The position numbers and the translations under genes are program-made. From IMG/VR virus record IMGVR_UViG_3300013120_000241, positions 1 to 26,383 of that record: a stretch of DNA of 26,383 nucleotides; one strand, written 5' to 3'. This stretch comes from a virus. The number at the start of each line of letters is the position of its first letter. The first letter of the stretch is position 1. Of the stretch, positions 4,190 to 24,910 are shown piece by piece. The notes under the pieces are model-generated. The model had not been told where the DNA came from. It did no database searches and worked only from the letters and a program-made list of their open reading frames with translations.

Positions 4190-4251
4190 CACCGAAATAA
4201 AATGCGTTTTAATGCTTTTTATGAAGTGTTATCAATTTTAAAAGTAAGAAA

Positions 4252-4617
4252 ATGAACAGAATATTAGGAGGTCGATACACCAGTTTAGGCCGTAAAAACA
4301 AAGTAAAAGAAAAAAGGCTTGAAGAAAAGTTTGCAAAAACATCTGTAGACAATCAAGTATGGGATGAATCCAAAAAACCTACATACGATTACTGTATCCG
4401 TGAAAAAATACGTTTGCAGGGTGATTATACACAATTACAAATCAAGCTCCATAATGAACTCGTGAGGCTTAAATATGAGCAAATGAGAGAGGATAATGAA
4501 GAGCTTATTTCACTTACTAAAGAAATCATTCAGGATTATTTTGACAAACTTGAAATGATGAAAATAGAATTTATTCACAAATTTAAAGAAGAACCGAATG
4601 ACATTGCAAGAAATTAG
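4252..4617 (+). CDS. hypothetical protein, charged, probable coiled coil
   Basis: A 121-aa protein. The N-terminus is basic and glycine-containing (MNRILGGRYTSLGRKNK), followed by charged helices (KEKRLEEKFAKT and later LHNELVRLKYEQMREDNEELISLTKEIIQDYF) that look like a coiled coil. No family is recognised. Its last 20 nt overlap the start of the next gene in another frame, so the two are probably translated together. Confidence 0.65.
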   Translation: MNRILGGRYTSLGRKNKVKEKRLEEKFAKTSVDNQVWDESKKPTYDYCIREKIRLQGDYTQLQIKLHNELVRLKYEQMREDNEELISLTKEIIQDYFDKLEMMKIEFIHKFKEEPNDIARN

Positions 4618-4978
4618 AAGTAAAAACTTTAAAAGAAAAGAAGAAAACCCTTATAATTTTCCGCCTTATGATAGGTCTATAAGTAAAGTAGTGAATGAAT
4701 GTACTCATAAACATAACCCTATTAAAGGTAAACCAATTGCTTATGGTGGCCGTATTGACCATGATACTAGATGTAAAAAAGGATCTCCAGCCAAAGCAAA
4801 AATATACTTTGTAAAAGGAATTGGAGAAGTAAGAGGATTAAAAGGTCTTAGCAAAGTAATTAGAATGCAATACAAGACAGTCGAGTATTATGCTCAAAGA
4901 ATACAAGAAAAAAAAGGAAAGTATTATAAATTTGAAAATAGTTTAGGCCATAAACTTCAAATAAAATTAATAAAATAG
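4598..4978 (+). CDS. hypothetical basic protein with a possible DNA-binding helix pair
   Basis: A 126-aa, strongly basic protein. The middle contains NECTHKHNPIKGKPIAYGG and HDTRCKKGSPAKAK, with several Cys and His residues that could hold a metal, though no standard finger spacing is clear. The C-terminal part (GLKGLSKVIRMQYKTVEYYAQRIQ) resembles a helix-turn-helix, as in small DNA-binding modules. Nucleic-acid binding is therefore a reasonable guess and no more. It overlaps the preceding gene by 20 nt and is followed 3 nt later by a very small ORF. Confidence 0.6.
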   Translation: MTLQEIRSKNFKRKEENPYNFPPYDRSISKVVNECTHKHNPIKGKPIAYGGRIDHDTRCKKGSPAKAKIYFVKGIGEVRGLKGLSKVIRMQYKTVEYYAQRIQEKKGKYYKFENSLGHKLQIKLIK

Positions 4979-23558: not shown

Positions 23559-24431
23559 TTATTTAAGATTCATTATTAACCCTCCATTAGATCCGGAAAC
23601 TTGGGGGAGTTTACCGTCCCATTTTTCAAGCTTTTTATATTCAACTAATGTAGTAGTAAGAGATTTAGAAAGTTTTTTGTTTGCTTCTGCTTGTGCTTCT
23701 GCTTTTGTTGTTACAGTATAAGCGTAAGCGTCGGCCTCAATTCTGCTTTTTTGTGCTTGTGCTTCCGCTTCGACACTATCTTTCTTTTGTTGAGCGATTG
23801 ACATTTGTAATTCGTTTTCCCTTTGTTGTGCTTTTTGTGTTGCTTCAATCTTTGCGTTTAAAGCTTTAGTGATAGATTGAGGTACTGATATTTTACCAAT
23901 TAAATAAATATCAGTTACAGTTATAAATTTCTCATTTGCTTTATTTACAATTAACTCTTTTACTTCTTTAATAAATTGAGTCTTACCAGTTCCATAAATC
24001 TGTTGTACATCTCTAGTTGAGCCTGCTCTATTAAATGCATCTCTCGTTGCGTTTCTTAATACTTTGTTAGTTATTTCATCTACACCTTTTTTGTACATCT
24101 GAAAAACCTTAACTACATTTTCTTCTTTAATCACATATTCAATACCAATAGAAGCTCCTAATTCAAGGCCGTTCATTGATTGAAATGAGAAAGAATCGTC
24201 ACCTTCAGAGCCTTCTCTGTTATCTCTAGTCCATACTTTATTTTGTCTAAAAGTAGGGAAAATATAAAGATACTCATTAGCTCCTACCCAATACCTACCT
24301 GGGCCGACAACTTTCTCTTGTACTCCTTTGTCTGCGTAAAGATTAAACAGCACCCCTACTTCGCCATTTTCTACAGTTGAACAAGAAAATAAAGACAAGG
24401 AAATTAACGACATTAATAATAAATTTTTCAT
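23559..24431 (-). CDS. SPFH/band 7 (prohibitin-like) lipoprotein
   Basis: A 290-aa protein. Residues 1-17 are a lipoprotein signal with lipobox LFSC (Cys17). An SPFH/PHB domain follows (about 22-200): VENGEVGVLFNLYADKGVQ, VGPGRYWVGANEYLYIFPTF, LGASIGIEYVIKEENVVKVF and ITVTDIYLIGKISVP. Then comes a coiled coil (QKAQQRENELQMSIAQQKK, EAEAQAQKSRIEADAYAY) and the prohibitin-type end EKWDGKLPQVSGS. SPFH proteins form large rings or cages on membranes and can bind FtsH-type proteases. Here the lipid would anchor it outside the cytoplasm. Phage roles are not settled; superinfection exclusion or envelope protection is a guess. It is coupled to the two-TM gene by ATGA. Confidence 0.88.
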   Translation of the reverse strand: MKNLLLMSLISLSLFSCSTVENGEVGVLFNLYADKGVQEKVVGPGRYWVGANEYLYIFPTFRQNKVWTRDNREGSEGDDSFSFQSMNGLELGASIGIEYVIKEENVVKVFQMYKKGVDEITNKVLRNATRDAFNRAGSTRDVQQIYGTGKTQFIKEVKELIVNKANEKFITVTDIYLIGKISVPQSITKALNAKIEATQKAQQRENELQMSIAQQKKDSVEAEAQAQKSRIEADAYAYTVTTKAEAQAEANKKLSKSLTTTLVEYKKLEKWDGKLPQVSGSNGGLIMNLK

Positions 24432-24592
24432 TTTAACAGTTTTTTTATTGTATATAATATAATTGAAATTGAAACAAAAACACTTAAAAAGATAAGTGCA
24501 TAATCACCTGAGTTAAAAACAATTGGCATTGCTAAACCAAACACGAAAATATATAAAACTATAATAAGTGATAAGTATATAGATTTTTTCAT
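24428..24592 (-). CDS. two-TM membrane microprotein
   Basis: A 54-aa ORF with two hydrophobic segments: YLSLIIVLYIFVFGLAMPIVF (about residues 6-26, split here only by length) and YALIFLSVFVSISIILYTI (31-49), with a short NSGD turn between and Lys at both ends. Both termini are therefore predicted to be cytoplasmic. Its stop overlaps the SPFH lipoprotein start as ATGA, so the two are likely partners in the membrane. A 21-codon ORF ends 4 nt before its ATG. A small holin-like or exclusion protein is possible; no family is recognised. Confidence 0.65.
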   Translation of the reverse strand: MKKSIYLSLIIVLYIFVFGLAMPIVFNSGDYALIFLSVFVSISIILYTIKKLLK

Positions 24593-24596
24593 ATCC

Positions 24597-24662
24597 TTAT
24601 AAAATGGAGAAACCTTTACTCATATACAGGCTCTCACATCCATATACAAATAAAGGCTTCAT
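24597..24662 (-). CDS. 21-aa ORF, possible leader peptide
   Basis: The peptide starts MKPLFVYGCESL and ends YMSKGFSIL. Its stop lies 4 nt before the ATG of the two-TM gene, close enough for coupled translation. Codons 9-11 (Cys-Glu-Ser) are exactly one arm (TGTGAGAGC) of a 9-bp inverted repeat whose other arm lies just upstream of the ORF. It may be a leader peptide that controls RNA folding, or a true microprotein; chance occurrence is also possible. Confidence 0.4.
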   Translation of the reverse strand: MKPLFVYGCESLYMSKGFSIL

Positions 24663-24697
24663 ATTATTAATTAATCATGTGTGAGAGCGATTAATTA
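24630..24697 (-). promoter_or_regulatory. structured leader with two interlocking 9-bp inverted repeats
   Basis: GCTCTCACA (24630-24638) is complementary to TGTGAGAGC (24680-24688). TAATTAATC (24668-24676) is complementary to GATTAATTA (24689-24697). The second pair forms a hairpin whose loop contains one arm of the first, so the pairings are mutually exclusive or form a pseudoknot. There is also a direct repeat CATATACA at 24621 and 24641. The region precedes the two-TM/SPFH genes and looks like a regulatory switch; no known riboswitch class is recognised. Confidence 0.5.
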
Positions 24698-24715
24698 TAC
24701 TGCAATTTACAAAAC

Positions 24716-24910
24716 TCAATCATCTAAAAAAACTATTTGACTTTTTTCTCGCCCTGCCAATGTTACCCAAATGTCATCTACTTTTATACGTACCTTACCC
24801 ATAGTACCACATGATACTTGGCCACCTTTATACAACCCTTCTATATCTCCTACACGAATACGCTTATCCTTCAAGCTTTGCAGGAATTTAAATGTAAGTG
24901 GTTCAATCAT
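24716..24910 (-). CDS. hypothetical small protein, probably beta-rich
   Basis: A 64-aa protein: a short helix (FKFLQSLKDK) followed by alternating strands and turns (RIRVGDIEGLYKGG, GKVRIKVDDIWVTLAG, SQIVFLDD), suggesting a small SH3-like barrel. No family is recognised. It overlaps the preceding TM/coiled-coil gene by 8 nt and is the last gene before the structured leader. Confidence 0.6.
   Translation of the reverse strand: MIEPLTFKFLQSLKDKRIRVGDIEGLYKGGQVSCGTMGKVRIKVDDIWVTLAGREKSQIVFLDD

Follow-up and report, generated by a model that had tools for sequence, protein, structure and literature searches.

Antisense-RNA transcription attenuators and plasmid copy-control systems act through loop-loop contacts made close to an intrinsic terminator of a 5′ leader, and use orthogonal loop pairs. 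The phage leader described here resembles them in its kissing loops near a terminator-like element and in its orthogonal pairs; however, the second loop of those systems lies on a separate antisense RNA, whereas the kissing leader would carry both loops in one transcript. The pRNA of phage phi29 is a phage RNA with two complementary loops, which pair between molecules in the packaging motor. Two complementary loops in a phage RNA are found here as well, but in a predicted mRNA leader that is for the most part well away from packaging genes. Transcription-attenuating riboswitches and leader-peptide attenuators likewise have a structured 5′ leader in which a terminator-like hairpin precedes the gene, but the kissing leader has neither an Rfam aptamer match nor a conserved leader peptide, and its downstream genes are unrelated. 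The put RNA of phage HK022 is approximately 70 nt long and consists of two stem-loops, with putL located just behind PL and two copies present per genome (PMC9378689). As with putL and putR, the kissing leader is a phage RNA of two stem-loops, located, like putL behind its early promoter, directly behind a putative promoter; it differs in having no put-like sequence or Rfam match, in its covarying complementary loops and terminator-like second hairpin, and in the phylum of its hosts. No description of such a kissing-hairpin leader was found in the open-access literature covered.

Architecture of the leader in the window

The window, that is, the whole stretch of DNA analysed, is a virus record of 26,383 bases. 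Since all genes around the leader are encoded on the minus strand, the leader was read on that strand; it is located between a 64-aa ORF (24716-24910, minus strand) and a 54-aa two-TM gene. The first-pass annotation had reported two 9-bp inverted repeats here, and both are present exactly as claimed: TAATTAATC/GATTAATTA, pairing 24668-24676 with 24689-24697, and GCTCTCACA/TGTGAGAGC, pairing 24630-24638 with 24680-24688, with the proximal arm of the second repeat inside the loop of the first. What it had missed is that the distal arm itself lies in the loop of a longer hairpin (HP2, 24640-24660 with 24609-24629) of approximately 21 bp counting G-U pairs, which are possible only in minus-strand RNA. 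The arrangement is therefore one of two hairpins with complementary loops, the first of which (HP1) has 9 bp. The HP1 and HP2 loops, GCUCUCACA and UGUGAGAGC, are mutually complementary over 9 nt and able to kiss. Read on the minus strand, a box TAAATTGC (24709-24702) is followed by AGTA, HP1 (TAATTAATC, loop GCTCTCACACAT, GATTAATTA), the linker ATAATAT, HP2 (21 bp, loop AUGUGAGAGC), the tail TCTCCATTTT and the start codon. The features are as follows.

24702-24709, minus strand: candidate promoter −7 box TAAATTGC (TAnnTTGY type), putative, ending 4 nt before HP1
24689-24697, minus strand: HP1 5′ arm TAATTAATC, from inverted-repeat search and fold
24680-24688, minus strand: loop-1 kissing arm GCTCTCACA, from inverted-repeat search and covariation in relatives
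24668-24676, minus strand: HP1 3′ arm GATTAATTA, from inverted-repeat search and fold
24661-24667, minus strand: linker between HP1 and HP2, shorter than that of relatives and lacking their AAAGnnnTTATT
24640-24660, minus strand: HP2 5′ arm, 21 nt, from the fold and the R1/R2 model matches
24630-24638, minus strand: loop-2 kissing arm TGTGAGAGC, from inverted-repeat search, and from pattern scan and covariation in relatives
24609-24629, minus strand: HP2 3′ arm, 21 nt, from the fold
24599-24608, minus strand: U-rich tail TCTCCATTTT, a weaker U-tract than most relatives have
24597-24662, minus strand: 21-codon ORF MKPLFVYGCESLYMSKGFSIL, not conserved in relatives and probably incidental
24428-24592, minus strand: gene of the 54-aa two-TM protein, first behind the leader, its start codon 37 nt past the second kissing arm
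23559-24431, minus strand: SPFH/Band-7 lipoprotein gene, second behind the leader (Pfam Band_7, phrog_200)

The leader region folds at −30.4 kcal/mol (z = −3.0), with 1 of 200 shuffles being equally good, and loops matching over 9 nt and closed by stems of at least 8 and at least 10 bp occurred once in the window and in none of 100 dinucleotide shuffles of it. The earlier statement that no known riboswitch matches was borne out, as no Rfam 15 family reached its gathering threshold by covariance-model score and only chance-level matches were returned; a riboswitch or other Rfam family was thus rejected.

Relatives of the leader and covariation of the loop pair

IMG/VR was scanned with the pattern GCTCTCACA-N20-50-TGTGAGAGC, which holds only the two 9-mers of the window with a free gap of 20-50 nt. 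This yielded 36 viral loci, approximately 29 of which have a gap of 41-45 nt and the same two-hairpin architecture, and a second pattern brought the total to 50 instances, 41 of them unique. The sense strand of the relatives was fixed by the T-run and promoter box. In this set, the start codon lies 37-49 nt after the second arm in all loci but one (68 nt), and the downstream proteins are unrelated. BLAST located the leader in Tenacibaculum phage Gundel_1, immediately upstream of an annotated antirepressor gene. Dozens of phage contigs in IMG/VR carry the leader, as do cultured phages of Tenacibaculum and Cellulophaga. GC-rich pattern matches (L013, L021, L025, L032, L033, L036 and L043) were set aside as plain hairpins or chance; L021 contains two such hairpins approximately 450 nt apart (4222-4261 and 4677-4718), both with GCTCTCACA/TGTGAGAGC arms, which resemble simple stem-loops of another kind.

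A single near copy of this phage exists, IMGVR_UViG_3300009431_000157; it begins at the terminase gene and stops short of the leader, and the SPFH protein provided no usable handle on relatives in IMG/VR. By tblastn, relatives of the SPFH/Band-7 gene were observed in 558 phage records from many hosts, some annotated as transposase. Scanning bacterial genomes with the exact loop sequences returned two chance-like matches; because the loops vary, prophages may carry other leaders. The detector found no leader in Riemerella and Flavobacterium elemoA phages in the stretch around the DUF6291 homologue.

Loop conservation in the pattern-found sets proves nothing, because those sets were picked by their loop letters. 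Leaders were therefore sampled by the protein behind them, the DUF6291 family. Across these leaders the promoter box, HP1, linker, HP2, T-run and ATG are kept, and the loops change completely yet stay complementary, the pairs including GGTCTCAC/GTGAGACC, GGCTGGAC/GTCCAGCC, CCTTCGAC/GTCGAAGG, GCTTCCAC/GTGGAAGC, CGTCTGAC/GTCAGACG and GTCGCAG/CTGCGAC, among others. Further pairs were found before DUF7833-type replication genes, a second gene family, and the variety across the whole family is wide, as exemplified by GCTCTCAC, GGCTGGAC, CCTTCGAC and GTCGCAG. When applied to 77 downstream-protein loci, the detector gave 50 matches when the second arm had to be the reverse complement, and none when it had to be the reverse, the complement or an identical copy. 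A complementary pair of at least 6 nt was present in 39 of 40 unique leaders (38 convincing, L103 doubtful), which had been chosen by downstream protein, promoter and T-run and not by loop sequence.

In an alignment of 23 leaders, the kissing helix is 100% paired, HP1 90% and HP2 94-96%. Double changes were observed in six of the eight pairs of the kissing helix and one-sided changes in none; G-U pairs are absent too, in part by selection, since the detectors that picked the leaders require perfect complementarity. The covariation score was 0.759, compared with 0.205 ± 0.017 for shuffled alignments and at most 0.152 when the helix was slid. These data make a two-hairpin kissing structure very likely. 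At the level of sequence comparison, the following are established: two hairpins, a covarying loop-loop helix, a site directly behind a promoter box, a U-tract in nearly all relatives, and a confined place before unrelated start codons. A loop serving as a protein-binding site common to all leaders was rejected, because the loop sequence is highly variable and not even constant among the leaders of a single genome.

The covariation also bears on the model of the first-pass annotation, in which translation of the 21-codon ORF toggles two competing folds. The ORF (start at 24662, stop ending at 24597) does end 4 nt before the ATG of the two-TM gene, and the distal arm does correspond to its codons 9-11 (TGT GAG AGC), so that the second arm falls in frame within the ORF. 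In the relatives, however, the two hairpins and the kissing helix show joint covariation and are retained side by side, which fits one kissing structure and led us to reject mutually exclusive folds. Nor is the ORF conserved among the 77 leaders: an ATG-initiated ORF of at least 10 codons crosses the second arm in 21, at varying positions and with mostly unrelated peptides, and in the other 56 there is none. A leader peptide was rejected on this ground, and a ribosome acting as the switch is hardly credible. The search for conserved structure and peptide in related phages that the annotation had proposed thus recovered the structure and not the peptide.

The family order is a sigma-A −7 box, HP1 at approximately +1, a linker, HP2 with its U-tract, and the start codon of unrelated genes. 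In the window, the kissing-arm starts are 50 nt apart (46-59 nt in the family) and the start codon is 37 nt past the second arm (mostly 24-46 nt in the family). The −7 box of relatives, TAnnTTTG, most often ends 5 nt before HP1 (42 of 77); that of the window fits TAnnTTGY and not TAnnTTTG. At least four T directly follow HP2 in 76 of the 77 relatives, and in the window this run, TTTCTCCATTTT, is interrupted. The linker AAAGnnnTTATT is frequent in the family without being universal, and the window, whose ATAATAT lacks AAAG, was therefore filed as a diverged member. A model built without the window (R1) finds it with 48.5 bits (E = 1.3e-7), a score resting partly on the loop letters by which R1 members were found; a second model (R2), built from diverse loop types and also without the window, gave 36.1 bits, with E = 2.9e-4 in 444 kb and 1.7e-5 in the window's own record. 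Both matches fall at the expected place and strand. Judged by these features, the window leader is a diverged member that has kept the hairpins, loop pair and start-codon distance and has a weak tail, another linker and a TAnnTTGY-type box. The earlier proposal of a structured 5′ leader for the two-TM/SPFH operon is thereby supported, and such a leader is common to the relatives.

A candidate conditional terminator

The sigma-A −7 box of Flavobacterium is located at −12 to −5 (PMC9723704). In the relatives the box mostly ends 5 nt before HP1, and transcription is therefore expected to begin at the base of this hairpin. HP1 and HP2 would then be joined by a loop-loop helix of 8-9 bp, and HP2 with its U-tract would resemble an intrinsic terminator placed immediately ahead of the start codon of the first operon gene. 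By default, many transcripts would end after HP2, releasing a 5′ RNA of approximately 90 nt, and a change in the kissing structure, or in the way RNA polymerase or a phage or host factor recognises it, would bring about read-through into the operon. Because a terminator-like HP2 stands before genes that the phage needs, for example for replication, read-through must occur at some time. We infer that termination at HP2 takes place in vivo, that read-through is under control and that this control acts on the kissing contact; a conditional terminator braced or set by this contact appears to be the simplest account. Of the attenuation that the first-pass annotation had proposed, the ribosome-driven form is thus not supported, the 21-codon ORF not being conserved, and attenuation in another form is suggested by the terminator-like T-run of the relatives. 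A competing antiterminator fold was searched for and none was found; one candidate, pairing linker AAAGG with CCUU at the HP2 base, was dropped as it is not kept in many relatives when read by eye.

The tails set a limit on this account. The U-tract is broken in both the window (GGTTTCTCC) and Gundel_1 (GGTTTCTTG), so termination may not be a function shared by all leaders, and in the window the leader may be largely permissive. Both hairpins and the loop pair are retained in these two phages, and HP1 begins at approximately +1, as would be expected if kissing hairpins at the extreme 5′ end protected the operon mRNA from decay and the U-tract were incidental. We consider such a 5′ stabiliser quite unlikely, because a run of at least four T in all relatives but one is hard to call incidental and only one to three operons per phage carry a leader. 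Overall, a cis-acting phage 5′ leader of an undescribed family in Bacteroidota phages, in which a kissing loop braces a conditional intrinsic terminator, is the reading that we hold to be probable, with considerable reserve.

Distribution among genomes and downstream genes

The first genes behind the leaders are unrelated and include DUF6291, DUF7833, DNA methylase, BT4734-like, NUMOD4 and antirepressor genes. The leader thus stands before replication, antirepressor, methylase and endonuclease genes and, in the window, before packaging-operon genes. At the other end of the window, an ORF on the minus strand (941-1705) reads like a phage antirepressor, and no kissing leader was detected before it, unlike the antirepressor gene of Gundel_1. 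Two or three leaders each were found in G015, G022, G027 and Gundel_1, with loop pairs that differ within each genome. Two terminase relatives (54% identity) carry leaders, one in record G026 and three with different pairs in G027; the third of G027 (L163, minus strand near 4257, GTCGTCG/CGACGAC) has no ORF of at least 36 aa starting within 75 nt.

One to three copies per genome, a site directly behind a promoter, two stem-loops and unrelated downstream genes resemble HK022 put, and the nascent kissing-hairpin RNA could accordingly bind RNA polymerase and cause read-through of terminators along the operon, its own HP2 included. Such a polymerase-modifying leader is possible but unlikely: put RNAs, which are marked by binding to the β′ zinc-binding domain, share sequence similarity, whereas the loops here are free to vary and only the short linker and a few loop positions are conserved in primary sequence, and a U-tract right after the second hairpin is not a put feature. 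Somewhat more doubtful is a free-standing sRNA acting in trans, for example by loop dimerisation or on targets elsewhere, with the gene behind it a mere neighbour. A promoter box and a terminator-like 3′ end approximately 90 nt apart would suit such an RNA, and loop pairs differing between leaders of one genome would suit specificity tags. The operon start codon, however, almost always falls within a narrow range of distances, the tails of the window and Gundel_1 are poor terminators, and neither 8-mer was found a second time in the window or across the 40 kb examined of Gundel_1. A more speculative idea, to which we give little credence, is a self-recognition code, in which terminated leader RNAs would pair via their loops with other copies of the same leader and so sense the number of phage genomes or transcripts, the loop pairs diversifying against cross-talk between leaders and co-infecting phages.

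The leader is a widespread structured RNA of Bacteroidota phages with strong loop-loop covariation and is absent from Rfam 15; it has the look of a switch or timer of phage genes that has not been described before. Should it be a conditional terminator, it would reveal how the timing of gene expression is set in these little-studied phages, and its naturally occurring kissing pairs, each distinct from the others, would offer a ready set of orthogonal RNA parts. This is testable in cultured phages with laboratory hosts, namely Cellulophaga phi13:2, phi19:3, phi46:3 and phi18:3 and Tenacibaculum Gundel_1.

The Cellulophaga phages phi13:2, phi19:3 and phi46:3 have one common leader (97-99% identity), which precedes a DUF6291-type gene in phi13:2 and phi19:3 and an HNH endonuclease gene in phi46:3; phi18:3 shares their promoter flank, and behind it stands another leader whose pair is also different, CTTCTGAC/GTCAGAAG. 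Such swaps, together with the different pairs within genomes, indicate that the loops need each other and not a fixed sequence, and that the leader is not tied to one gene. Between phi18:3 (L195:1490-1700) and phi13:2 (L170:2350-2505), the promoter flank is common and both leader and gene are wholly different, a module swap at the promoter.
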